Of a stretch of DNA of 64,000 nt, positions 39,969 through 63,963 are shown piece by piece. The notes beneath the pieces are model-generated. The model saw only the letters and a list, made by a program, of their open reading frames with translations. It ran no database searches and was not told the DNA's origin. Within the stretch, counting starts at the first letter, position 1. The number at the start of each line of letters is the position of its first letter. The DNA comes from Candidatus Saccharimonadota bacterium (GTDB lineage: Bacteria; Patescibacteriota; Saccharimonadia; Saccharimonadales; Saccharimonadaceae): positions 62,001-126,000 of the forward strand of contig JAFRAS010000008.1 of assembly GCA_017405265.1 (NCBI GenBank), given 5' to 3'. A program made the position numbers and the translations under genes.

Positions 39969-41426
39969 ATGAAAGAAGAAATTGTGACGAGGTTTGCGCC
40001 GTCGCCGACGGGGTATATTCACCTTGGGAATGTCAGGTCGGCGATTTATCCGTATTTGATTGCGAAACAGGCGGGCGGGAAATTTATTTTGAGGATTGAG
40101 GACACGGATCAGGCGCGCTTTGTCGAGGGGGCGACGGAGCTTATTGAGGAGACACTGTCGTGGCTTGGGATGAAATGGGACGAGGGGCCGGAAGTCGGGG
40201 GTGAGCACGGGCCGTATTTTCAGTCGGAGCGTCGCGAAATTTATAAAAAGTGGGCGATGAAGCTCATTTCGGCGGGGAGGGCTTATGTTGATGATACGCC
40301 GGAGGAGGAAATTCAGAAATATCGCGAGGAGTGTAACGCTCGGAAAGTTCCGTTTTTGTATCGGAATTTTCGCCCCGAGAAGCTCAAGTTCGAGTGGGTG
40401 GAGGGGAAGCCGATTCGGTTTTTGTCGGACCCCAAGAGACGCGAGTGGAAAGACGAGGTGATGGGGGAGCTTTCGGCGGGGCCGGAGGTGCAGGATGATA
40501 TTATTTTGATTAAGAAAGACGGGTTGCCGACTTATAATTTTGCGCATATCGTGGATGATGCGGAGATGGGGGTGACGCACATTGTGCGCGGAGTGGAATA
40601 TCTGTCGTCGATGCCGAATTATCTCGCGATTTATGAGGCTTTGGGGCTACCTCGCCCGAAATTCGTGTCGCTCCCGCACGTTCTCGCGCCGACTGGGAAT
40701 AAAAAGTTGTCGAAGAGGGACGGGGCGAAGTCGGTGACGGGATATAGAGCGGACGGGATTTTGTCGGAGGCGATGCTGAATTATCTCTGTTGTCTCGGGT
40801 GGAATGACGGAACGGAGCAGGAAATTTATACGATGGATGAGCTCGTTTCTCGGTTTTCGGTCGAGAAAATTCAGAATTCGGGGGCGAGGTTCGACGAGAC
40901 GAAACTTTTATGGTATAGCGGGCAGTGGATTCGGAAGATTTTTGATGAACGGGGAGTGGATGCGCTGTACCTGCGGACGGAAGGGTTTTGGCCGGAGGAG
41001 GCTGAGGGGGCGTCGGAGGAGTATAAAAAGCAAGTACTTTCGATTATTTATGATCGACTCAGGGTGCTTGGTGATTTGAAGACTATGACGGGGTATTTCT
41101 TCCGCGACCCGGAGATTAAGATTGAGATGATTGAGAATAATAAATTCGTGAAGAAAATGAGCGAATTGGAGCGCGCTCTGAGTCTCCGAAAAACGGCGGA
41201 AATTCTCGGGGAAATCGAGGAGTGGAATGCGGAAAATATTCAGGCGGGGCTCAACCGGGCACTCGAGGAGACGGGGAGGAAGCCGGCGGAGTTGTTCTCG
41301 CTTGTGCGGATTTCTTTGAGCTTTGCGGAGTTTTCGCCGGCTTTGAATCTCACGATGGAAGTACTGGGAAGAGAGACGAGCCTCGCTCGCATTCGCAAGG
41401 TGATTACGGCGATTTCGAATGAATAG
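39969..41426 (+). CDS. gltX: Glutamyl-tRNA synthetase
   Basis: A class I synthetase of 485 residues, with RFAPSPTGYIHLGNVRSA at the N-terminus (HLGN as HIGH), RIEDTDQAR, and KLSKRDGA (KMSKS-type) near residue 245, followed by the helical anticodon-binding domain. The segment corresponding to the zinc-binding part of some bacterial GluRS (around residue 100-125) has only one or no usable cysteine cluster, as in many family members. No separate glutaminyl-tRNA synthetase is visible here; whether this enzyme is non-discriminating cannot be told. It overlaps the sortase gene by 8 bases. Confidence 0.96.
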   Translation: MKEEIVTRFAPSPTGYIHLGNVRSAIYPYLIAKQAGGKFILRIEDTDQARFVEGATELIEETLSWLGMKWDEGPEVGGEHGPYFQSERREIYKKWAMKLISAGRAYVDDTPEEEIQKYREECNARKVPFLYRNFRPEKLKFEWVEGKPIRFLSDPKRREWKDEVMGELSAGPEVQDDIILIKKDGLPTYNFAHIVDDAEMGVTHIVRGVEYLSSMPNYLAIYEALGLPRPKFVSLPHVLAPTGNKKLSKRDGAKSVTGYRADGILSEAMLNYLCCLGWNDGTEQEIYTMDELVSRFSVEKIQNSGARFDETKLLWYSGQWIRKIFDERGVDALYLRTEGFWPEEAEGASEEYKKQVLSIIYDRLRVLGDLKTMTGYFFRDPEIKIEMIENNKFVKKMSELERALSLRKTAEILGEIEEWNAENIQAGLNRALEETGRKPAELFSLVRISLSFAEFSPALNLTMEVLGRETSLARIRKVITAISNE

Positions 41427-42156
41427 ACGCTGGATTTTCGGGGTAGTTTTGTTATTTCTCGGGTCGGTTTTGGCGGGGTATGCTGGGATTAATTTTGTTG
41501 TTTGGAAGGTCGATTCGGAGCGGACAAATGAGGCAATAACGGAACTGAAGAAAATCGCAATAACAGAGGAAAATGGCGATCAGAGCGCGTTTTCCGTCTC
41601 CGAGAAAATGACAGTAAATTTTTCGGAACTTTTGCGTCAGAATAACGACACGGTGGCGTGGGTGGAGTTTCTTTCTACGGAAGTGTCGTATCCGGTGGTA
41701 CAGACGAGCGACAATGAATTTTATCTTCGGCATAGTTTTGATAAGCGCGGAAATTCGGCGGGGTGGGTGTTTATGGATTACCGAAATCGGGCGGATTTTT
41801 CGGATTTTAATACGATATTTTATGCGCACGGGCGGCTTGATAATACGATGTTTGGGAGTCTCAATGAGGCGTATAAAAATAAGAAATTTTCGCGGGGACA
41901 GAAGATTCAGGTTTATACTGCGCGGGAGAATTTTGAATATGAAATTATTTCGGTGTATTTGACGGCGCCGACGGATGATTATATAAAAACGAATTTTTCG
42001 GACGAGAAGGAGAAAAAAACGTTTATTAATATGATTCTCGGGCGGGATGAGTTGGGGCTCACGAGCTCGGCGACAGAGGAAGATGAGATTTTGACGCTTT
42101 CGACGTGTTATGATTCGAGCCGAAGATTGGTGGTTCACGCGAAAAAGGTGATATAA
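41419..42156 (+). CDS. Class B-type sortase
   Basis: A membrane-anchored transpeptidase of 245 residues. It has an N-terminal membrane segment (about 6-28), then the sortase domain: NDTVAWVEF and VSYPVVQTSDNEFYLRHSF (SrtB-type N-terminal part), catalytic His in FYAHGRL (His137), catalytic Cys in TLSTCYD (Cys230) and Arg236. Class B sortases act in surface protein or pilus anchoring. No LPXTG or NPQTN-like sorting motif was found in the visible exported proteins, so its substrate is unknown. Translationally coupled to gltX. Confidence 0.9.
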   Translation: MNRRWIFGVVLLFLGSVLAGYAGINFVVWKVDSERTNEAITELKKIAITEENGDQSAFSVSEKMTVNFSELLRQNNDTVAWVEFLSTEVSYPVVQTSDNEFYLRHSFDKRGNSAGWVFMDYRNRADFSDFNTIFYAHGRLDNTMFGSLNEAYKNKKFSRGQKIQVYTARENFEYEIISVYLTAPTDDYIKTNFSDEKEKKTFINMILGRDELGLTSSATEEDEILTLSTCYDSSRRLVVHAKKVI

Positions 42157-46595: not shown

Positions 46596-47120
46596 TTAAT
46601 TAGATGCTTTGTTTTCGAGTCCCGAAATAATTCCGGAAAGTCCACCAGCGAGGGCGGAAACGGAATCGTTGAGTGGCGAAAGAAGACCAGCGACGACTTG
46701 CGCGATGAGTTCGTCTTTCGTCGGCAATTTCGAGAGATCGGTGATTTCGGCTTCATTCAGAGCGTGCCCAGAGTCGGAGAAGCCGCCGAGAAGATGCAAG
46801 GCGTCGTGCGTCTTGGCAAATTCAGCGAGGACTTTCGCGGGGGCAACTTCGTCAGAATCGGAAATCGCGTAGATGAGTTGGCCAGTTAAACCAGTAGTAT
46901 CAGTGTCTTTATAGACGGCGATCTGGTTCATGGCAACTTTCACAAGGCGGTTTTTCACCACCTTGATTTTTACTCCTTGTTCCCGAGCGGCGTGGCGCAG
47001 ATCTTGGAGATCGGCGACAGTTAAGCCCTGGTAGTTAGCGTAAGCGGTGAGCTTCGCAGACTCAAGAAGGGCGGTAAGGTCGGAAACGAGAGTATCTTTC
47101 TTTGCTTTGGAAATAGCCAT
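46596..47120 (-). CDS. rplJ: 50S ribosomal protein L10
   Basis: A 174-residue L10: SALTALL-type N-terminal helix, [34 protein letters not shown], and a C-terminal helix that carries L7/L12 dimers. Preceded by a recognisable L10 leader, so autorepression by the L10-L7/L12 complex is likely. Confidence 0.97.
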
Positions 47121-47221
47121 AATACTCCTTTACCCAAACTGGAAAGTTACGTCACCAAATATCAGAAGATAACCTCGGTGGCATGATTAAAGGAAAAACC
47201 TCGCCACTGTCTTTGGTAACT
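47121..47221 (-). ncRNA. L10 leader (ribosomal protein autoregulatory leader)
   Basis: On the minus strand the leader contains ACCAAAGACAGTGGCGAGG ... CATGCCACCGAGGTTA, matching the conserved pattern of bacterial L10 leaders (AAAGACAGCAGG ... CCTGCCGAGG). The GTGGC/GCCAC stem and the kink-turn-like flanks are seen in 47171-47218. L10-L7/L12 binding there is known for the family. Confidence 0.85.
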
Positions 47222-47227
47222 TCTTAT

Positions 47228-47256
47228 ATTATATATCTCTTGGCGCAGAATGTCAA
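47228..47256 (-). promoter_or_regulatory. Promoter of rplJL
   Basis: TTGACA, 17-base spacer, TATAAT; the -35 overlaps the dnaB stop codon. Confidence 0.88.
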
Positions 47257-53329: not shown

Positions 53330-53359
53330 AAAACTCCGAGATTAAACTCGGAGTTTTTT
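53330..53359. terminator. Bidirectional terminator between tRNA-Leu and the giant secreted protein gene
   Basis: AAACTCCGAG-N6-CTCGGAGTTTTTT. Six T on the plus strand, four on the minus strand. Confidence 0.88.
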
Positions 53360-53374
53360 AACGCATTATGTTCC

Positions 53375-56300
53375 CTAATATCTCGGCGGGAGCGAGACCT
53401 GGTAAGTCGAAGTGACGACGGCGGAGTGGTGAGCAGACTGGGCGTAGCCCCAAAGATAAGTCAGACCGTTGTAATCGATAGTTTCGGCGGGAATGGAAGC
53501 GTAGTCCGGATCGGTATTCATCGAAGTGCCGGAGCCGTAGGCACGGTATGGCAGGATGGATTGAGTGAGGACGGAGCCGGTAATCTTGAGACCGGTAGCT
53601 TTACAGTTATTAAGTCCGGTGACGAGGCCGACGCTGTTTGTTCCAAGATTACCATCAACGCAAGTATTGACATGGCCATTCGGAGCGATGAGCCAGGCGT
53701 CGATGTTTCCGACATTGTTCTTAATGTTAATGTTGCCGTTTTTCGAGACGATCAAGTATTGCGGAATGCTGTCGATGGAACTGTGGCCGAGGGATTCGTA
53801 GCTTAAGTTGCCGGCAATAGTGATGTCGCCTTCGGCTACGACGATGTGAGTGGTGCCGTGGGGGAGCCTGCTCGAGGCGGAGACGGTGAGAGTGGATGGA
53901 GAGTAAGTGTAGCGGGCGTCGCCATAGGCGGAGCTTTTAACAGTATATTGGCCGGGGTTGCTGAGGTCGACGGAGCCAGTGCGGTTGCCGGAGGCCTGGG
54001 AGGTGGCGATGTAGCGAGCAGAGAGGGCGGAGTAGGGGCCGGAGCGGTAGAGCGGGATGTAGCCGTTTAACTTATAAGTGGAGCTGTCGCAGGAGGCGTT
54101 CGGGATGGAGAGCGGAGTTGCGAGTCTGAAAGTTTTGCTGCCCGAAGTGACGTCTCTACAGAAGATGCTGTCTTCGGTGGTGCGGCCGGAAGTGCCGGTC
54201 AAAGAGGGCGAAGCGCCTTTTCGCGCGGAAGAGTAGCCGAGCGAAGCACCAGAGGCGAAGCCGATGAGAGTCGGGGTATTGGTGCCGACGCTACCCATGA
54301 TGGTCGAGAGCTCGGCCCAGGAGCCGTAGGTCTTGTTCGGGGCAGCGGCGCTGTTAATGTTGGTGCCGTTGGTGGTGCGGTGGGAGAGCGGAGTGGTGAC
54401 GTTGCCAGCGGAGAAGAGGGAGCCACCCCAGATTTGGAGGTTGAAATGTTTGCCGTAGTTTGAGTTGCAAATCGGGTCGGAGTAGCGCCAGCGTTTTAAG
54501 GAATCGTAGTTGATGTAGCCATTGGCGCTCGCGGAGGCGGATTCGCCGGTTTGGTTACCGTAGTTGTAGGCTGCGGTGGCGTTGAAGCCGTTGGTGCCGC
54601 CACCAGGCGAGCCGGCGTTGCCGAGGTTGTCGTAGTTCACGGCGACGACGTAGCAGAAGACTTTTTTGCGGTTCGAGGTGGAGTTAATGTGTTCTTCGGC
54701 GGGGTTGGCGAAGGACGTAGTGTATTTATGAGTTTCATCGGGGGTTAAAGTAGTATTTTCGGTGATGGTTTTACAGTTGTTCTTGGTCTGGTAGGGGCCG
54801 ACGAGGGAGTTGTTTGAGACACTCTTAAAGTAATTTTCGAAGTAAGTGCAGGGGTCGCCAGTGCCGGGGACAGTGGTGCCGGCATAAACGGTGGCATCTT
54901 CGTAGGCGACGTAGGGGATGACGACGGCTTTAATGTCGGGGGTGGTCATGGTTTCATAAGTGGTTCCCTGGCTGCCGGTGGTCGGATTGTAATCGGTGAC
55001 TGGGTTCGTGGTCGGGTCGATGCGGACTTCGACGGTGGTGTCGGTACTGCCGTTTAATTCAATAATTTTATCATCATAGGTCGGATCGGTGATCGGGGTA
55101 GTTTGGAAGTTGTAAGGGTTATAGACGATTTTGCAGACCTTCGAGTAGCCAGTAGCGGCGACGCCTTGGCCAGCGAGAGTGAGTTTTTTCGTGTAGTAGT
55201 TAATATTCTCGCAGAAGCGGCGGAAGTTACCGACGGCGGTTTGGTTAGACGAGTTAGTGTTATATTCGCGCGATTCGAGGGTGGTAGTTGAGGTCGAGTT
55301 GGGTTTTTCGAGGGTGAAGAAGGTAGAAGTGATGCTCTGGAAACCGCCGACGGCGTAGTTGATGCGGAGGGGATAATTATAGCGATCTTCGCGCATCGGG
55401 TCTTCGCGCTGGAGGCGGTGGCGGAATTGGATGGTGAAGGGAGAGTTCGAAGTGTAATAGACGCTGGCGTTACGAGTGGAGTTACCCGGGTAGCTGTGGC
55501 CAGTAAATTCGAAGCCAGTGTCATTAGTATTATTCGGTTCGAGACAGGTGTAGCGAGAACCGGTGGCGCTGGTGCAGTTTTGGGGAGTGGGGACGCCAGG
55601 TTTTACCATGACGCCGGAGTTGGAGCTCGAGAGGAGGTCGATGAGTTGGACATGGACGGAACCGGTGCTGCTGCCGGAGCCGGAGTTCGTCGCGTCGTTA
55701 TAGAAATATTTTGGAGAGTAGCTGACGGTGTCCTTGAGGTCATATTCGCCGGGGGTAGTGTCGCCAGGGACGGTGTAGCCGTTTGCGGCATTTAAGGTGT
55801 AGTTATGCGGGGCGTCGGTCGCGACGTTGAAATTGGCGGTGTAATTTTCTTTGATGCCGGCGGACTGGAAGACGGACCAGGAGCCCGGGAAGTTGATGGC
55901 TGGGCCGGTCGAGAAATTGGTTTTCAAGAGGTGATAGGTCGGGGCCTTCGGGTAGTTGCCCATATTACCGGCGAAGTGAAGGTCGTGGGTGTAGCCGACG
56001 GAGACACGGTAGTTATAGGGGAGAATGTACCAGGTTTGACTGTTCATGTCGATTTGGCTACTGGCGGAGCCCACCTTCGAGCCGACTTGGGAGCCGGGGT
56101 CGAGGATGGAATAATAAGTCTGGAAACGAGCGGACGAGGTCGAAGTGAATTCGCCGTTACTCGCGTGGACGACGACGGTGGCGCAACGTTTCGAGGGATT
56201 GCTCGTGAAGGTCAGTTCGGTGAAGGCGTCGGAGGCGGTGGCAGTGGTCGAGAGAGTAAAGGTTTCGCAGATTTGGTAGGTGCCGGGTTTTTTGAAGGTT

Positions 56301-58912
56301 AAGTTGTGGTTGTGGGCGGAGATTAGATTATAGGTTCCGGAGGATTTTATCTCGTAGGAGGTGGTTCTGGCGTGGCTTTGGACAGCGGAATTTAGGTAAG
56401 TAGTGTTATTACAATCCGTCGAGAAGTTGGTGGCGCCGGAGGTGGCGGAGTTGTGGCCGCAGGTGAAGTCGGCTTTATAATCGACTTTGACGTAGTTCGC
56501 AGCGTTCAAAACAAGATTTTTTAACTCGACATCGTGGCGGAAGGAGAGGTTCTGGGACTCGCCGGCGTAAGTATAGGATTTTCCTGAGGCCCAGCCGAGG
56601 CTGTCGGCGCCGAGGTCGGATTCCGCGAGAGAGCTGGTGGATTTGCCGATGTATGAGTGTGGAGTGAAGTCGCCTTGGGGCTTTTCGACTTTCACTTCGG
56701 CGCAAGCTTCGGCTTCGGAGGGGTCGGCTTTCAAGTTAGCCGTGGTGCGGTTCGAGTCGAAGTAGGGGGTCGCAAGAGTGAGTTTTTCGCAGACATTATA
56801 AGTGCCGTAGCGGGTGAATTGGTAACGGCGGGTGCGGGTGTTCGTCGTAACGGTGTTCGCGGCGGTATCGGAGGTGAAGGAGAGGGTGCCGCTCGTCGAG
56901 GTGCCGTAAGGATGAGAATCGGAAGGAGTGGTGTAGCTCGCGTTGGAGAGGGCGTAAGGGAGGCTGGCGGTGAAATTTTCGGTGACGGAGTTCGCGGAGT
57001 GGAGAGTGATGGCGGTGTAGGAGATTTTATGAGTGAAGGCAAAATCGAGAGTGTTGGTGTAGCCAGTTTCATAGATTTTTATGTCACCGCCGGAAATAGA
57101 GGTCGGAGAGACGGAAACCGAGGGCGAGAAAGTGCCTTCGGGGTCAACGGTAGTGACGGTGGTGCAGGCGGAGGAAGGGTTCGAGGAGCTGATAGACATA
57201 CCGGTGGTGGCGCTACTTAGAGTGAAGGTTTCACAGATGGTATAAGTGCCGGGGTCGTGGAATTTATAGGTGTGGGTATGAGTGTTCGCCGTGGTGCTGC
57301 CGTTCGCAGTCTGACCAGTCCAGGAGCCGGAACTCGGGCTCACGGCGTTCGAGGTGAGGTTGGCACAATCGTAGGCGGCGCTGTCTTTTGTACAAGAGCG
57401 GGAGACGGACCAGCTCACGCCGACGGAGTTCGCGGAGTGGAGAACGAGGTCAGAAAGAGTAATAGAGTGGGTAAAGGTGATGGATTGGCCGGAATCGTAT
57501 TTTGGTTCGGAAATGGAGGTTGGGGAGACGGAAGAGGAGGGAGTGAAAGTCCCCGTCGGATTTTGGACGGTGAAGGTCGAGCAAGCCGAGGAGGGGTTCG
57601 AGCTCAAAGTAGTGCCGGAAGAGTTGCCGGAAAGCGTGAGGGTTTCGCAGATGACATAAGTGCCAGCGGAAGAGAAGGTATAAGTATGAGTATGAGAGCT
57701 CGCGGTAGTGCTACCATCTGCGGTTAGACCAGTCCAGGAGCCGGTTGAGGGGCTCACGACGCTCGGAGTGGGACAGGAGATGGCAGAACCGTCCTTTGTG
57801 CAAGAACGGGAGACGGACCAGTCTACGCCAACGGAACTCGCGCTACCCAGGTTTAAGCTAGACAGAGTGATGGAATGAGTAAAAGCAACAGATTGGCCAG
57901 CGCCGAATTTCGGGTCGGTGGTGCTGGTCGGAGTAACCGAAGAGGAAGGCGTGAAAGTACCAGAGGGAGCAGTGTAAGTAACGGAGACGCAGGCGGTGTC
58001 GGAAGTGAAGGAATAACTGCTCGAGGAGATAGTTTCGCAGAATTTATAGGTACCGTAAGAGTCGGCGGTATGAGACAGAGTGCTAGTATTGACGGTTTGG
58101 GAAGTGGAGCTCGTGAAAGTGGCGGTACCGGAAGCGGAATTGCCGGTACAGGAAATAGCGGAATCGTTCAGGTAGCAGGCGCGGGAAACAGACCAACCGG
58201 CGGAGACAGAGCTCACTGCGAGAGAGCCGGTACCCCAGCTATAAATAGAAGCGGAGACGGAGTGACTGAAGTTGACTTTCATGGTGCCGCCGAGGACGTT
58301 ATTAGTGTCGCTGGCCCAGCTCGCGGAGGCGTCGGCGGAGAAAGAGTAGGAGGGGGGTTCATCTTCGGGCTCGTCGGGCTCATCATCTTGATAGTCGTCC
58401 CACGTAGAGTCGTCGCTGGAGGAGCCGCCGAGGCTGACTGTAGCGTAACAACCGTTACCACTGTAAGCGTGCCAAACTTTAACGGTGCCGCTGGTACAAT
58501 TGCCGGAAAGGGAAAAGCTAATAGAACCGCCGGACATGGAATACCAGGCGACGCCGGAGCCCCATTGGTTCATGTTCGTAGGGCTACCTATCGAAGTATC
58601 TACGCTGTTAGTAGTGACGGAACAGCCAGACGGAGCTCCTTCCAATTCGGCATTACCGATTTGGTTATTGCCGCTGTCGTAGCCAGTATGGCAACTTTCG
58701 AAAGATTTACTACCGCCACCGGACGAGCCGCTCACCCAGAGATCCAAGCTACCGATGGGACCACGATTAGGGGCGTTTTTACAAGCTTGGCCATCCACTG
58801 CCCAGTCCACGCAACGGCCGGCGAAGGCGGGAGAGGTGAAGAGAAAAATGGAGACGAAGGAAAAAGACAGGGCTAATAAACCAAGAACTTTTGACCTCCG
58901 TGCGATAAACAT
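53375..58912 (-). CDS. Giant secreted repeat protein (1845 aa), paralogue 1
   Basis: A surface or secreted protein of unknown family. Signal peptide at residues 1-31 (cut after AFA). A cysteine-containing N-terminal domain runs to ~165, then an Asp/Glu/Pro-rich linker (~165-188). Five divergent Ig-like repeats follow (about 189-313, 314-449, 450-590, 591-742, 743-915). Each begins like GTFTPSSSV and ends with GTYxICET and a second Cys (SNPSSAC), suggesting one disulfide per repeat. From ~916 to 1845 it aligns with paralogue 2, ending in a beta-solenoid-like domain (~1690-1845, GNINIKNNVGNIDAWLIAPNG). No LPXTG motif or C-terminal membrane segment. Thr/Ser-rich throughout. Confidence 0.85.
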   Translation of the reverse strand: MFIARRSKVLGLLALSFSFVSIFLFTSPAFAGRCVDWAVDGQACKNAPNRGPIGSLDLWVSGSSGGGSKSFESCHTGYDSGNNQIGNAELEGAPSGCSVTTNSVDTSIGSPTNMNQWGSGVAWYSMSGGSISFSLSGNCTSGTVKVWHAYSGNGCYATVSLGGSSSDDSTWDDYQDDEPDEPEDEPPSYSFSADASASWASDTNNVLGGTMKVNFSHSVSASIYSWGTGSLAVSSVSAGWSVSRACYLNDSAISCTGNSASGTATFTSSTSQTVNTSTLSHTADSYGTYKFCETISSSSYSFTSDTACVSVTYTAPSGTFTPSSSVTPTSTTDPKFGAGQSVAFTHSITLSSLNLGSASSVGVDWSVSRSCTKDGSAISCPTPSVVSPSTGSWTGLTADGSTTASSHTHTYTFSSAGTYVICETLTLSGNSSGTTLSSNPSSACSTFTVQNPTGTFTPSSSVSPTSISEPKYDSGQSITFTHSITLSDLVLHSANSVGVSWSVSRSCTKDSAAYDCANLTSNAVSPSSGSWTGQTANGSTTANTHTHTYKFHDPGTYTICETFTLSSATTGMSISSSNPSSACTTVTTVDPEGTFSPSVSVSPTSISGGDIKIYETGYTNTLDFAFTHKISYTAITLHSANSVTENFTASLPYALSNASYTTPSDSHPYGTSTSGTLSFTSDTAANTVTTNTRTRRYQFTRYGTYNVCEKLTLATPYFDSNRTTANLKADPSEAEACAEVKVEKPQGDFTPHSYIGKSTSSLAESDLGADSLGWASGKSYTYAGESQNLSFRHDVELKNLVLNAANYVKVDYKADFTCGHNSATSGATNFSTDCNNTTYLNSAVQSHARTTSYEIKSSGTYNLISAHNHNLTFKKPGTYQICETFTLSTTATASDAFTELTFTSNPSKRCATVVVHASNGEFTSTSSARFQTYYSILDPGSQVGSKVGSASSQIDMNSQTWYILPYNYRVSVGYTHDLHFAGNMGNYPKAPTYHLLKTNFSTGPAINFPGSWSVFQSAGIKENYTANFNVATDAPHNYTLNAANGYTVPGDTTPGEYDLKDTVSYSPKYFYNDATNSGSGSSTGSVHVQLIDLLSSSNSGVMVKPGVPTPQNCTSATGSRYTCLEPNNTNDTGFEFTGHSYPGNSTRNASVYYTSNSPFTIQFRHRLQREDPMREDRYNYPLRINYAVGGFQSITSTFFTLEKPNSTSTTTLESREYNTNSSNQTAVGNFRRFCENINYYTKKLTLAGQGVAATGYSKVCKIVYNPYNFQTTPITDPTYDDKIIELNGSTDTTVEVRIDPTTNPVTDYNPTTGSQGTTYETMTTPDIKAVVIPYVAYEDATVYAGTTVPGTGDPCTYFENYFKSVSNNSLVGPYQTKNNCKTITENTTLTPDETHKYTTSFANPAEEHINSTSNRKKVFCYVVAVNYDNLGNAGSPGGGTNGFNATAAYNYGNQTGESASASANGYINYDSLKRWRYSDPICNSNYGKHFNLQIWGGSLFSAGNVTTPLSHRTTNGTNINSAAAPNKTYGSWAELSTIMGSVGTNTPTLIGFASGASLGYSSARKGASPSLTGTSGRTTEDSIFCRDVTSGSKTFRLATPLSIPNASCDSSTYKLNGYIPLYRSGPYSALSARYIATSQASGNRTGSVDLSNPGQYTVKSSAYGDARYTYSPSTLTVSASSRLPHGTTHIVVAEGDITIAGNLSYESLGHSSIDSIPQYLIVSKNGNINIKNNVGNIDAWLIAPNGHVNTCVDGNLGTNSVGLVTGLNNCKATGLKITGSVLTQSILPYRAYGSGTSMNTDPDYASIPAETIDYNGLTYLWGYAQSAHHSAVVTSTYQVSLPPRY

Positions 58913-58918
58913 AAGTTA

Positions 58919-58924
58919 ATTATA
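58919..58924 (-). promoter_or_regulatory. -10 box of giant paralogue 1 (leaderless)
   Basis: CGTGC-extended TATAAT, 6 bases before the ATG at 58912. Confidence 0.62.
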
Positions 58925-58947
58925 GCACGGCGTTTTTAAATGTGTGT

Positions 58948-58960
58948 TGTAAAAAATACA
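58948..58960 (-). promoter_or_regulatory. TGTA-N5-TACA element upstream of giant paralogue 1
   Basis: The 13-bp palindrome TGTAAAAAATACA ends 23 bases before the -10 box and lies right after the stop of paralogue 2. Same sequence and same distance as at paralogue 2. Confidence 0.55.
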
Positions 58961-58963
58961 TTT

Positions 58964-61900
58964 TTAATAGCGGGGCGGGAGAGAGACCTGGCAAGTCGAG
59001 GTGACCACGGCGGAGTGGTGGGCAGACTGGGCGTAGCCCCAGAGATAAGTTAGACCGTTATAATCAATCGTTTCGGCGGGGATGGAAGCGTAGTCCGGAT
59101 CGGTATTCATCGAAGTGCCGGAGCCGTAGGCGCGGTAAGGCAAGATGGACTGGGTGAGGACGGAGCCGGTAATCTTGAGACCGCTCACTTTACAGTTATT
59201 GAGTCCTGTGACGAGGCCGACGCTATTCGTTCCGAGGTTGCCATCAATACAGGTGTTGACATGGCCATTCGGGGCGATGAGCCAGGCGTCGATGTTTCCG
59301 ACATTGTTCTTAATGTTAATATTGCCGTTTTTCGAGACGATTAAGTATTGCGGGATGCTGTCGATGGAGCTGTGGCCGAGAGATTCGTAGGTTAGGTTCC
59401 CGGCGATGGTGATGTCACCTTCGGCTACGACGACATAAGTCGAGCCGGCGGAAAGAGGAGAGGAGGCATAAATTTCGAGGTTAGTCGCGCTATAAACATA
59501 GCGCGCGGAGCCGTAGGAGGTGGTGATTTCGGTGGAAGAGCTCGGCTCGGAAAGGTCGAGGGCGCCCGAACGGAGGCCAGCGCCGGCGGCGAAGGCGATG
59601 TAGCGCGAGGAAAGGGCGAGATAGGGACCGGAGCGGTAGAGCGGGATGTGTCCAAAGAGTTTTGTACTACTATTACCACAATTGTTGTTCGGGACGGAGA
59701 GAGGAGTGAGAGAGTTGCAGAAGAGAGTGCTTTCGGTCATGCGACCGGAGGGAGCGGTGAGGGAGGGCGAGGCGCCTTTTCGCGCGGAAGAGTAGCCGAG
59801 GGAGGCGCCGGAGGCGAAGCCGATGAGAACGGGGTCGGAAGTGCCGACGCCGGAGAGGACGGTCGCGAGCTCGGCCCAGGAGCCATAAGTCTTATTCGGG
59901 TTTCCGAAAGTTTCGCTGACGGCGCCACTCGTAGTGCGGTGGGAAAGCGCGGTCGAGACATTTCCTCCCGAGAAGAGAGAGCCACCCCAGATTTCGAGAT
60001 TATAATATTTTCCGAAGTTCGAATTGCAGACGGGGGCGGAAAGGCGCCAGGATTTCAGCGAGTCGAGGTCAAGATACGCGGAGGCGGAAGTTTCATTGCC
60101 TTTCTGGTCCCCGGAGGCGGCCGCCGCGCTCCAATTGAAGCCGTTATTGTCATTCACGACAGAATAATTCACGGCGACGACGTAGCAAAAAGTTTTTTCG
60201 CCAGAGAGTTGACCCTCGGTCGGGGTGGCGAAGGAGGCAGTGTAATCGTGAGAGCCGGGAGAGAGGGGAGAGGTGCCACTCAAAATACGGTTGCAGTTTT
60301 CGCGAGTTTTATAAGAGGAGCCGATCGACGCGTCATAGGACACGGAGGAGAAATAATTTTCGAAAGCGACGCAAGGGTCGGCGGTGCCGGCGACAGTACC
60401 GGCGAAAGTAGTGTGGTCTTTTTCGGCGACGTAAGGGATAACGACGGCTTTGATATCGGAAGGAGTGAGAGTGGCATAGCTTCGGCCGACGGCGGGGCCG
60501 GTCGGGTCGCGATCGACGACGGAATTGTAAACTTCGTTGATGTTGATTTTTGCGCTGGCGCTGGTGCTACTATTTAATTCAATAACTTTATTTTCGAAAC
60601 TCGGGTCGGATTTCGGGTCGGTTTGGAAATTGTAGGGAGAGTAAACGAGTTGGCAAATCTTCGAGTAGCCAGTATTGTCCACGCCTTCGCCGAGCAAAGT
60701 GAGTTTTTTGGAATAATAATTGATGTTTTCGCAGAAGCGGCGAAAAGTGCCGACGGTGGTCGAGGAATAGCCGCCGGCGGAGAGAGTAGTGGTAGAAGAG
60801 GAAGTGTTGGTTTCTAAGGTATAGAAGGTAGCGGGGACGGATTGGTAGCCGCCGACGGAGTAGTTCACGCGGAGCGGGAAATCGTAATTATCTTTGCGTG
60901 AGAGGTGGTGACGGAATTGGATGTAGAAAGGCTGGTCTTGGGAGACGTAGTAGGGAGTCGCGACTTTCGCGGTGTTGTCGGGGTAGCTTTTGGCCGTGAA
61001 TTCAAAATTGTCGTCGCTGTTCGGTTGGAGACAGAGATAAGTCGAGCCGTCAACGCCGGTGCAGCTTTCGGGAGAGGGGGAGGTGCCGGTGCCGGGGCTC
61101 ACCATCACGCCGGAGGAGGACTGGGCGAGGAGGTCAACGAGGTGGAGCGTGACGCTGGCGCTACTTTCGCCGGAGCCGGAACTTTCGCCGTCGGAAGTGA
61201 AAGTTTCGGGTGCGAAGGAGATGGTGTTTTTTAGGACGTAATCGGTGGGGGACTGGTCGGAGGTGACGGAGAAGCCGTTATTACTATTCAAAAAATAATT
61301 TTTGACATTGTTCAAAACTTCGGTCGAGGTGGCGTAGTTCTCGCTGGCGCCCCAGGGGGAGGAGACGGACCAGGAGCCAGACGTGGTAAGTTCGGAGCCG
61401 ACAGAGTAATTAGTTGTGAGGGTGTTCTGCTCGGATTCCGAAGAATCTTCGAGATTGCCAGTGAAGCTCAGGCCGTGGGTGAAATTTACGGTCACGCGGT
61501 AATTGTAGGGGAGAGTGTATTCGGTTTTGCCGCCGATTTTCGTGAGACTGCTTTGTTCGGAGGCGTAGGAGCCGAGACCGGCGAAGAGAGCGGAGGAATA
61601 TTTTACGAAGTGGGCGCTCGAAGTGGCGGCGAAGACGCCGCTACTCAGGGGCTCGGGCTCATCGTCGTCATCATAATCGTCATCGTCGTCGTGATCATCG
61701 TCATAATCGTCGTCCGAGCCGCCGCTGACTTCGTAAGTGTCGGTGGAGCAGCCGCCACCGTAGCAGTGAGTGATGGTGAAAGTTTGGCCGGAGCAACTGG
61801 CGGGGATTTCTAGGGTGATTGAGCCGCCGCTCGCCCAATATAGCCGGCCACTACCTTTTTTCTCGGAGCCGTCCCAGACGCCACCGTTACTGTCGAAACT

Positions 61901-62215
61901 GCCACTTTTTGTGATGCCGCAGGGGCTAGTCACGGTGCCTTCGCTACTGTTGCCGGCGTCGAGATTGTTAGAACAGGAGTAAATCGTACGATAGATGGTC
62001 TGAGTACCAGAATCAATACTCGTGACAGCGCCAGTGACGGCTCCGCCACCCGGGCTGAGGTAGCCGAATGGCCCGCCGGTTGCACCGTCGCAATAATTAC
62101 CAGTGATGCTACTTTCGAGCGGGCGACCAGCGTCGGCGAAAGTAGAAGAAGCAAGCAAAAAACAGGAGATTAAAGACAGAGCGACTATGCCAAAAAATTC
62201 GGACCTCCGTAGCAT
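58964..62215 (-). CDS. Giant secreted protein (1083 aa), paralogue 2
   Basis: Signal peptide at about residues 1-27 (TFA). A Cys-containing N-terminal domain leads to an almost pure Asp tract (about 168-186), then a region that is paralogous to residues ~916-1845 of the neighbouring giant protein, without the five Ig-like repeats. The last ~155 residues are nearly identical between the two (beta-solenoid-like, ending SLPPRY), with mostly synonymous DNA differences. The start at 62215 is set by the signal peptide and the -10 box; a longer in-frame reading is rejected. No sorting signal. Function unknown; adhesion to a host cell is a reasonable guess. Confidence 0.85.
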   Translation of the reverse strand: MLRRSEFFGIVALSLISCFLLASSTFADAGRPLESSITGNYCDGATGGPFGYLSPGGGAVTGAVTSIDSGTQTIYRTIYSCSNNLDAGNSSEGTVTSPCGITKSGSFDSNGGVWDGSEKKGSGRLYWASGGSITLEIPASCSGQTFTITHCYGGGCSTDTYEVSGGSDDDYDDDHDDDDDYDDDDEPEPLSSGVFAATSSAHFVKYSSALFAGLGSYASEQSSLTKIGGKTEYTLPYNYRVTVNFTHGLSFTGNLEDSSESEQNTLTTNYSVGSELTTSGSWSVSSPWGASENYATSTEVLNNVKNYFLNSNNGFSVTSDQSPTDYVLKNTISFAPETFTSDGESSGSGESSASVTLHLVDLLAQSSSGVMVSPGTGTSPSPESCTGVDGSTYLCLQPNSDDNFEFTAKSYPDNTAKVATPYYVSQDQPFYIQFRHHLSRKDNYDFPLRVNYSVGGYQSVPATFYTLETNTSSSTTTLSAGGYSSTTVGTFRRFCENINYYSKKLTLLGEGVDNTGYSKICQLVYSPYNFQTDPKSDPSFENKVIELNSSTSASAKININEVYNSVVDRDPTGPAVGRSYATLTPSDIKAVVIPYVAEKDHTTFAGTVAGTADPCVAFENYFSSVSYDASIGSSYKTRENCNRILSGTSPLSPGSHDYTASFATPTEGQLSGEKTFCYVVAVNYSVVNDNNGFNWSAAAASGDQKGNETSASAYLDLDSLKSWRLSAPVCNSNFGKYYNLEIWGGSLFSGGNVSTALSHRTTSGAVSETFGNPNKTYGSWAELATVLSGVGTSDPVLIGFASGASLGYSSARKGASPSLTAPSGRMTESTLFCNSLTPLSVPNNNCGNSSTKLFGHIPLYRSGPYLALSSRYIAFAAGAGLRSGALDLSEPSSSTEITTSYGSARYVYSATNLEIYASSPLSAGSTYVVVAEGDITIAGNLTYESLGHSSIDSIPQYLIVSKNGNINIKNNVGNIDAWLIAPNGHVNTCIDGNLGTNSVGLVTGLNNCKVSGLKITGSVLTQSILPYRAYGSGTSMNTDPDYASIPAETIDYNGLTYLWGYAQSAHHSAVVTSTCQVSLPPRY
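61669..61718 (-). repeat. Trinucleotide (GAT/GAC)n tract coding for polyaspartate
   Basis: About 17 codons, nearly all Asp, in paralogue 2. The tract is repetitive enough for slippage. It occupies the same linker position as the Asp/Glu/Pro-rich stretch in paralogue 1. Confidence 0.75.
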
Positions 62216-62268: not shown

Positions 62269-63963
62269 TTACGGGGTGCGGGAGCGGAGGGATTTTTGGA
62301 CAGACCAAGTCGAGAGGTCGGCGAAGCGGTCGGTGGGATAAATCAGGGTGTTATCTTCGGAGAAGACGCGGGCGCCAGAATGATAATAATAAGAAAGCTC
62401 GGTCTGGGAAATGGCGAGGGCGGGGGCGTCGTTTACCCATTGCTTCAGGAAAGCTTCGTATTTTGTCGCGCGGAGTTTCGGGTTCGAGTTGGTGCGGGCG
62501 GCGAGAATGAGGTCGTCGGTCAGGACGGAGGAATAATTCGAGAGGTTGAGGCCGGAGGAGCCGACACCGGAGGAATGATAATAGGCGAAAAGATCGGGGT
62601 CGGCACCGAGGTCAATTTCGTAAAGCAAAAGGTCGTAGTCACGAGCGGAGAGGACATTTAAGACGAAATCCTGGGTCGGCTCGAAGATGGTGAGGTTCAC
62701 GGCGAGACCGAGATTTTCGAGTTCGGATTCGAGTTTTTGGGCTAGCTCCGGGAAAGGAGCGGTGGAAATTGTCACAAGACGAAGAGCTTTCGGGGAAAGT
62801 TCGGTGATTTTGTCGCGAGCGGCGGAGAGGTCGAGCTCGGGGAGGGCAGGCCAGTTTTCGAGAGAAAGTTGACTTTTTAAAATTGGGTAGTCGAGGGCGG
62901 GGGCGTCACCTAAGACGGAGCGGAGATTTTCCATATTTACGCCTTTTTGGATGGCACGGCGAAGTTCGACGTTATTCAGAGGCTCTGTCGTGGTGTTCAT
63001 AAAAATGAAAATGCCGGAGGAGAGGGCGGTTTTTCGGAGTTTCAGGCTCGAGGGGGCGAGGGAGGAGTCGGAGAGCATGGCGGTGCCGGTGACGGCGCCA
63101 CGCGAGAGAGCGGAGGCGAGGGATTTTTCGTCGGGATAAGTGTGGACGGCGAAGGAGGCGAGATTCGGCGGGGTGAGATAATAATTTTCGTTCGGGGAGA
63201 GGTAATAGACGGATTCGCTCGAGGAGATGGTCTGGGAGGCTTTAAAGAAGAAGGGGCCAGAGCCGACGGGTTTCATCGAGAATTCGGACTCGAGGAGGAC
63301 GGCTGGATTGACGTTCTCGAGGATATGTTTCGGGAGGATGGGAAAGTTCAGGGCGGAATAAAAGTCGGCGTAGGCGTTATTCAGAGTGAAAATAGCAGAG
63401 TTCTCGGTGATTTCGACTTTTACGCCGGAGAGGTTCGAGGAATAAGAGGATGAGACGAGGGGGTTTTGGATGAGTTCGACGGTGAAGAGGAGGTCGTCTA
63501 AGGTAATCGGTTCGCCGTCGGACCATTTCAGGTCTTTTCGGAGGGTGACGGTCCAGATTTTTGAGGTGTTATCGACGGTAACGGAGGAGGCGAGGCCGAG
63601 ACCCATGTGGCCGGAAAAGTCCGGCTCGGTGAGCGAGGCGAAGAGGAGACGGGCGAGGATTTTTTCGCTTTCGGTGCTCGCAAAGAGCGGGTTTAAGGAT
63701 TCGACCTTGTCGGTCGTTCCCTCAATGAAGGAGCCGCCAGCGCCGTAGGCGGTGGTCGAGTAATCGTCGCGGTACCAGAAAAGTTGAGTAAGGGCGAGCA
63801 AAATCAAGAGGGTAAACATGAGTGCCCATTCGAAAACCTGGAGACGGACGAGGCGGAGACGTTTCAAGCGCGCAAAAAAGTTCACGCGCACGTGTTTCGC
63901 GCTTTTTTCGGCGACAGTTTCGGCGTTTTTTTTGATTTTTTCGATGGAGCGGAGTTTTTTCAT
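62269..63963 (-). CDS. Membrane-anchored family 5 extracellular solute-binding protein (peptide/nickel type)
   Basis: A 564-residue protein. A basic N-terminus and one membrane segment (about 43-63) anchor the SBP_bac_5 domain: VESLNPLFASTESEKILARLLFASLTEPD near 88-115, WTVTLRKDLKWSDGEPITLDDLLFTVELIQNP near 138-168, the FPILPKHILE region, VGSGPFFF near 250 and a C-terminal lobe ending YPTDRFADLSTW. Family members deliver oligopeptides to Dpp/Opp permeases; the permease genes would be expected upstream, outside the window. Having a membrane anchor instead of a lipobox is notable. Ribosome site is weak. Confidence 0.9.
   Translation of the reverse strand: MKKLRSIEKIKKNAETVAEKSAKHVRVNFFARLKRLRLVRLQVFEWALMFTLLILLALTQLFWYRDDYSTTAYGAGGSFIEGTTDKVESLNPLFASTESEKILARLLFASLTEPDFSGHMGLGLASSVTVDNTSKIWTVTLRKDLKWSDGEPITLDDLLFTVELIQNPLVSSSYSSNLSGVKVEITENSAIFTLNNAYADFYSALNFPILPKHILENVNPAVLLESEFSMKPVGSGPFFFKASQTISSSESVYYLSPNENYYLTPPNLASFAVHTYPDEKSLASALSRGAVTGTAMLSDSSLAPSSLKLRKTALSSGIFIFMNTTTEPLNNVELRRAIQKGVNMENLRSVLGDAPALDYPILKSQLSLENWPALPELDLSAARDKITELSPKALRLVTISTAPFPELAQKLESELENLGLAVNLTIFEPTQDFVLNVLSARDYDLLLYEIDLGADPDLFAYYHSSGVGSSGLNLSNYSSVLTDDLILAARTNSNPKLRATKYEAFLKQWVNDAPALAISQTELSYYYHSGARVFSEDNTLIYPTDRFADLSTWSVQKSLRSRTP

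Follow-up and report, generated by a model that had tools for sequence, protein, structure and literature searches.

Two giant secreted proteins of a Saccharibacterium belong to a family encoded with type IV pilus genes and are candidate pilus-tip adhesins

A tandem pair of giant secreted proteins

The window, that is, the whole stretch of DNA analyzed here, comprises 64,000 nucleotides of Candidatus Saccharimonadota bacterium (assembly GCA_017405265.1, contig JAFRAS010000008.1, positions 62,001 to 126,000 of the forward strand). On its minus strand lie two tandem genes, P1 and P2, which encode giant secreted proteins of 1845 and 1083 amino acids and which we consider as candidates for adhesins at the tip of type IV pili (T4P). 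Both proteins are laid out as a signal sequence, an N-terminal domain (N-domain, ~140 amino acids), an acidic linker, a shared body, and a shared end, and P1 has the architecture of P2 plus five immunoglobulin (Ig)-like repeats between the N-domain and the shared body. An earlier reading made from the letters alone (the sequence-only reading) had described two giant modular secreted paralogues differing by five repeats, and its coordinates, sizes, and layout were confirmed. The features are as follows, in window coordinates.

53375..58912, minus strand: P1 gene, secreted protein of 1845 amino acids (open reading frame [ORF] and translation)
58820..58912, minus strand: P1 Sec-type signal sequence, residues 1-31, end AFA|G (hydropathy scan and inspection)
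58405..58816, minus strand: P1 N-domain, species-private, common to P2 and a CHAP/NlpC-like protein elsewhere in the genome
58349..58404, minus strand: P1 acidic linker DDEPDEPEDEPP (sequence)
57971..58348, minus strand: Ig-like repeat 1 of the P1 insert
57560..57970, minus strand: Ig-like repeat 2 of the P1 insert
57137..57559, minus strand: Ig-like repeat 3 of the P1 insert, the one modeled
56675..57136, minus strand: Ig-like repeat 4 of the P1 insert
56156..56674, minus strand: Ig-like repeat 5 of the P1 insert
54509..56155, minus strand: P1 shared middle body, 40-70% identical to P2 in blocks
53378..54508, minus strand: P1 C-terminal module (C-module), residues 1469-1845, family-wide, predicted to be a capped beta-solenoid
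53378..53842, minus strand: P1 last 155 codons, homogenized with P2
58964..62215, minus strand: P2 gene, secreted protein of 1083 amino acids (from ATG)
62132..62215, minus strand: P2 Sec-type signal sequence, residues 1-28 (hydropathy and inspection)
61711..62131, minus strand: P2 N-domain, residues 29-168
61649..61710, minus strand: P2 acidic linker DDDYDDDHDDDDDYDDDDE (sequence)
60068..61648, minus strand: P2 shared middle body
58967..60067, minus strand: P2 C-module, residues 717-1083 (the construct modeled)
58967..59431, minus strand: P2 last 155 codons, homogenized with P1

According to hydropathy, the hydrophobic Sec-type N terminus, with an AxA-like end, is the sole transmembrane (TM)-like segment of each protein. 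Inspection of hydropathy and motifs found no LPXTG motif and no C-terminal hydrophobic segment or anchor in either protein, in agreement with the earlier statement that they lack sorting signals, and inspection of the sequences found no prepilin motif. A lipobox-like LISC inside the hydrophobic stretch of the P2 signal was judged spurious. P2 is acidic overall, with an isoelectric point (pI) of 4.6. Sequence searches with P1 and P2 gave no Pfam match up to an E value of 1 and none in PDB, and the single NCBIfam match, to one stretch, was below threshold (TIGR03769, P_ac_wall_RPT; 18.2 bits versus a cut-off of 30.9).

The five repeats of P1 are 126, 137, 141, 154, and 173 amino acids long and are 20-66% identical in pairs, with invariant positions G-T-Y..C-E and C. 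A profile built from them has exactly five matches in P1 and zero in P2. When modeled alone from the five-row alignment, a single repeat gives a fairly confident beta-sandwich (predicted local distance difference test score [pLDDT] of 81), the structural matches of which include Ig-like domains of integrin legs, CARDB, and adhesin domains, one of them a fibrillar adhesin domain (9ifr). This bears out the earlier description of the repeats as Ig-like. In each protein, the shared body contains two further occurrences of the repeat-marking motif F-[TSR]-H, and the five-repeat insert thus looks like the expansion of a preexisting theme.

The N-domain of P1 and P2 is absent from all other genomes among the 36 compared. 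Within the genome of the window, it is also found in a protein of 403 amino acids (L003:1489-2700; G000:C2), in which it is followed by a Pro-Ser-Thr linker and a weak CHAP/NlpC-like end; the gene lies after an ORF with one TM segment.

The C-module is nearly universal in the order

The shared end of P1 and P2 belongs to a module of ~360 amino acids with invariant D-A-W-L-I, T-C, C, G, R, E, and W positions. BLAST searches with P2 recovered relatives in 21 of 60 genomes, mostly via the last part of the protein. A profile built on the final ~155 residues detected the module in 35 of the 36 genomes of the order (Saccharimonadales), including all 23 of good quality. The spread across the phylum Patescibacteria is weaker, since the same profile matched 85 of 241 genomes, often over only the first ~130 of its 155 positions. 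A search of a named collection returned 33 C-module loci, nearly all from Candidatus Saccharibacteria and many from ruminant guts. No Pfam match of the PilY1/PilC type or to DUF3494 was found in six full-length C-module relatives. In a quick tree of 89 nonredundant C-modules, P1 and P2 are sisters (support of 100) and are nested within the pilus-linked family, grouped with copies located at radA.

The sequence-only reading had called P1 and P2 proteins without known domains and possibly a new family, which holds for sequence searches but missed a T4P-linked family present almost throughout the order. Wide occurrence in free-living bacteria, which would have counted against its interpretation, was not found in the Patescibacteria searched or in one wider pattern scan of contigs. 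That scan matched Saccharibacteria, bacterial bins in which the same operon is present, and a single Streptococcus record, presumably contaminated. A literature search found no description of the C-module family or its link to pili, and the main text of the paper on the pili of TM7x does not mention this secreted family (PMC12206443). As a family and a fold, the C-module proteins appear to be new, while as a kind, the pilus-tip adhesin, they are already known.

Two members of the family stand apart. The Streptococcus record (L063; NZ_WCJE01000039.1, Streptococcus suis AP_SS21) is a contig with a Saccharibacteria-type C-module protein; it is probably contamination or a cosequenced episymbiont and could hint at an unrecognized partner organism. 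At G148:C2:316144-316497, in a genome of the same class, a C-module domain lies within an open frame reported as 25,343 amino acids, exceptionally large for bacteria.

C-module genes head type IV pilus operons

In all 16 of the other families of the order that were examined, a C-module gene lies at the head of the T4P operon; pilM is the next gene in 14 of them and the next but one in 1, and in the last the order is scrambled beside pilB-pilC. The typical order is a small ORF with one TM segment, the C-module gene, pilM, pilN, pilO, a short ORF, pilB, pilT, pilC, the major pilin, pilD, and the minor pilins. These families share descent and are not independent trials of the linkage. A functional tie between the C-module and the pilus is nevertheless likely, because the linkage has been kept at about 30% protein identity.

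A second context, found in the genus of the window and in others, places the C-module gene directly before or close to a four-gene cassette of minor pilins, the last of which lacks Glu5 (L052, L060, L061, L072, L074, L077-L079, L107, and L109). In the genus of the window, the pil cluster begins at pilM without a C-module gene (L037, L047, and L050), and C-module genes are located before the four minor pilins (of the FimU, PilV, PilW, and PilX kinds), in the murC-radA gap, or in the tig-rpsL gap. Overall, 34 of the 89 nonredundant modules are located at pilM, 15 at minor pilins, 7 at radA, 2 at rpsL, and 2 in the window; the other 29 are elsewhere or are cut by contig ends. Outside the order, pilM or other pil genes adjoin the C-module gene in several relatives (L111, L118, L119, L126, and L127).

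The predicted fold resembles solenoids of ice-binding proteins and of a competence pilin

The model of the P2 C-module is a capped beta-solenoid with a well-predicted core at model residues ~151-270, where pLDDT is about 80-97. VIA-align places it closest to DUF3494 ice-binding proteins (Z of 11-12), followed by ComZ, the competence pilin of Thermus thermophilus (6QVI; Z of 9.2 over 202 residues, root mean square deviation of 4.2), and both results stand above the next rows. The beta-solenoid end suspected by the sequence-only reading is thus supported as a predicted fold. The C-module profile had no match among PDB sequences, and P1 and P2 differ from the DUF3494 proteins in that they have no Pfam match up to an E value of 1 and in an operon context of pili rather than ice. 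The solenoid of ComZ was itself likened by its authors to the ice-binding protein FfIBP, and ComZ was argued to sit at the pilus tip (PMC6561018). The tie with T4P is a further likeness. However, the solenoid of ComZ is an insertion in a pilin, whereas P1 and P2 lack a pilin segment, and no sequence similarity between them was detected.

The ends of the two proteins have been homogenized

Over the last 155 codons, P1 and P2 have 97% amino acid identity, with a nonsynonymous divergence (dN) of 0.017 and a synonymous divergence (dS) of 0.47, which confirms the nearly identical final residues and mostly synonymous DNA differences seen earlier. The remaining 687 aligned codons have 55% amino acid identity, a dN of 0.39, and a dS of 1.05, which is near saturation; dN/dS is about 0.37 in this body and 0.04 in the tail. 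At identical residues, codons match in 74% of cases in the tail versus 57% before it, with 48% expected at saturation (Fisher P = 3e-4). The optimal breakpoint for synonymous differences falls ~13 residues from the boundary of protein identity. The sequence-only reading had offered strong selection or gene conversion as alternatives; dN/dS and the codon-match test support both, and the either/or wording does not stand. From these comparisons, older gene conversion followed by strong purifying selection would fit best as the account of the tails.

Other, unrelated gene pairs, tandem or duplicate, likewise combine conserved C-terminal ends with divergent N-terminal ends. In one such pair, from another genome, identity is 96% over the last 150 residues and 45% before them, and the DNA is nearly identical at the very end. 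In a distant Patescibacterium (L120; G064:C1:703000-721000), tandem C-module genes are 99.9% identical over their 3' 1350 nucleotides, and their N-terminal ends are 17% identical.

A probable role at the pilus tip

Among the closest known counterparts is PilY1, a Sec-exported nonpilin with a variable N-terminal region directed outward and a conserved C-terminal domain directed toward the pilus, which is encoded with four minor pilins (FimU-PilV-PilW-PilX, of which PilX lacks Glu5) and together with them primes and caps the pilus (PMC7541494). P1 and P2 are not PilY1 by sequence. They lack its beta-propeller (no Pfam match), their conserved end is predicted to be a beta-solenoid, and in most families the C-module gene heads the core pilM-N-O-B-T-C operon. 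They resemble it in having a Sec-type signal without being pilins and in their conserved C-terminal and variable N-terminal ends, and many family members, though not those at the window locus, are encoded next to a set of four minor pilins that ends in one lacking Glu5; the presence of several paralogous clusters in a genome is a further likeness (PMC7541494). Because export, the polarity of conservation, and the gene neighborhood match the plan of PilY1, we propose that P1 and P2 are probably two forms of a PilY1-like adhesin that is secreted and sits at the tip of the T4P, its constant end docking on the pilus and its variable end serving in recognition. From these matches we infer the location at the tip, the docking on minor pilins, the recognition of the host, and the retention by the relocated P1 and P2 of an ancestral role in the pilus.

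On this proposal, P1 and P2 would be exported by Sec, and the beta-solenoid of the constant C-module would dock on the complex of minor pilins responsible for priming and capping the pilus. The Ig-like repeats would form a stalk from which the N-domain would reach outward to recognize the host cell. With stalks of unequal length and dissimilar front ends, the two copies may produce pili that differ in reach or specificity, and gene conversion could keep the two docking ends alike even as the front ends drift apart. In cultivated Saccharibacteria, binding to the host is driven by T4P (PMC12206443), and for S. epibionticum these pili are essential (PMC10633639); the link of the family to T4P operons and minor pilins suggests a mechanism for the role in host contact that had been suggested for P1 and P2, which is plausible. 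Another pilus adhesin has been proposed for a Saccharibacterium, PilX2 of Nanosynbacter lyticus TM7x; it differs in being described as a beta-propeller minor pilin and T4P-2 adhesin candidate (PMC12206443).

Several observations weigh against a role at the pilus tip. The window locus contains no pilin gene, P1 and P2 lack the small one-TM gene usually found just ahead of a family member, and the surroundings of several C-module genes, at radA, at rpsL, or elsewhere, are devoid of pilus genes. The C-module model has a mean pLDDT of 63.6 with weak flanks and is in part of low confidence, and Foldseek alone found no match to it below an E value of 1.4, so that the fold likeness comes from the second-look aligner. 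The literature search found no experiments on any member of the family. Finally, PilC and PilM had no match in the genome assembly of the window.

That assembly is a metagenome-assembled genome (MAG) of 519 kb that is 85.6% complete. No C-module protein other than P1 and P2 was recovered in it, although the genome has minor pilins of all four types, and this combination counts in favor of the tip role. PilC is present in 57 of 60 relatives and in all 42 of good quality. The genes rpsR and efp, which neighbor the pil cluster in relatives and are otherwise nearly universal, are also missing from the assembly, so the absence of PilC and PilM is most likely an assembly gap. All four minor-pilin types were found on contigs C2 and C3, without an adjoining C-module gene; with these present, and with rpsR and efp missing too, loss of T4P in the species was rejected. 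A type II secretion system (T2SS)-type ATPase on contig C7 (L034:8808-11842; G000:C7) adjoins a secreted LTD-like protein rather than pil genes and was not taken as evidence for pili. Similar T2SS-type ATPases were seen in the two other genomes of the genus that lack a PilC match.

Because P1 and P2 have moved away from the pilus loci and are without the one-TM gene that usually accompanies the family, the main rival explanation is that they are general surface adhesins located on the cell body and binding the host at close range, with the C-module retaining or anchoring them at the cell surface and the linkage to T4P reflecting coexpression. The many C-module copies outside T4P loci (at radA, at rpsL, and in the window) favor it, as do the Ig-like repeats and the long serine/threonine-rich stalk, which are typical of fibrillar adhesins (compare the match to 9ifr). 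Distant lineages keep the small one-TM partner gene, a possible membrane anchor, but this is the very gene that P1 and P2 lack, and a strict first place in the pil operon in 16 of 16 other families, together with the linkage to minor pilins, exceeds what general coexpression would lead one to expect. We consider this explanation unlikely, although it is the likeliest of the alternatives. Sortase anchoring was rejected for lack of an LPXTG-type signal, though the window contains a class B sortase gene. That gene (41419-42153) scores 157.5 bits versus a curated cut-off of 153.75 and occurs here in a Saccharibacterium.

The similarity in fold to ComZ, which binds DNA (PMC6561018), and the natural competence of Saccharibacteria (PMC10633639) could instead indicate a receptor for DNA uptake, in which the solenoid at the tip would bind DNA for transformation and not the host cell. 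ComZ is a pilin with its solenoid inserted, however, and P1 and P2 have no pilin N terminus; the acidic linkers, the acidic P2, the large variable front ends, and the repeat expansion better fit recognition of a ligand or host, and such a receptor is improbable. Least probable of all, and very much so, is that P1 and P2 lost their pilus role after leaving the T4P loci and persist as decaying or neutral, divergent surface proteins. The large dN between them outside the tail and the lack of T4P genes at the locus are in keeping with decay, but the frames are open over 1845 and 1083 codons, the signal sequences and cysteines are conserved, and the dN/dS values in both body and tail point to constraint.

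Extended from P1 and P2 to their relatives, the proposal of a tip adhesin becomes more tentative. The C-module proteins may be a nearly universal family of pilus-tip adhesins in Saccharibacteria, with relatives across Patescibacteria, that replaces PilY1 and sets host range; a beta-solenoid dock kept uniform by gene conversion would be joined to interchangeable recognition ends that diversify, and copies would have been placed at new loci. Pili matter in how ultrasmall episymbionts find and hold their hosts, and the family offers a concrete, genetically testable candidate for the part that recognizes the host. On this view, the giant proteins of the window are not isolated oddities but derivatives of a core protein linked to the pilus.

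Neighboring features

Directly upstream of P2, positions 62269-63963 encode a family 5 solute-binding protein that has a membrane segment at its N terminus. A ribosomal protein L10 leader scoring above the Rfam cut-off lies at 47109-47234 on the minus strand. One further feature adjoins the end of P1 and is likely a two-way transcription terminator.

53330..53359, no strand assigned: inverted repeat and T-run between tRNA-Leu and the end of P1 (inspection only)
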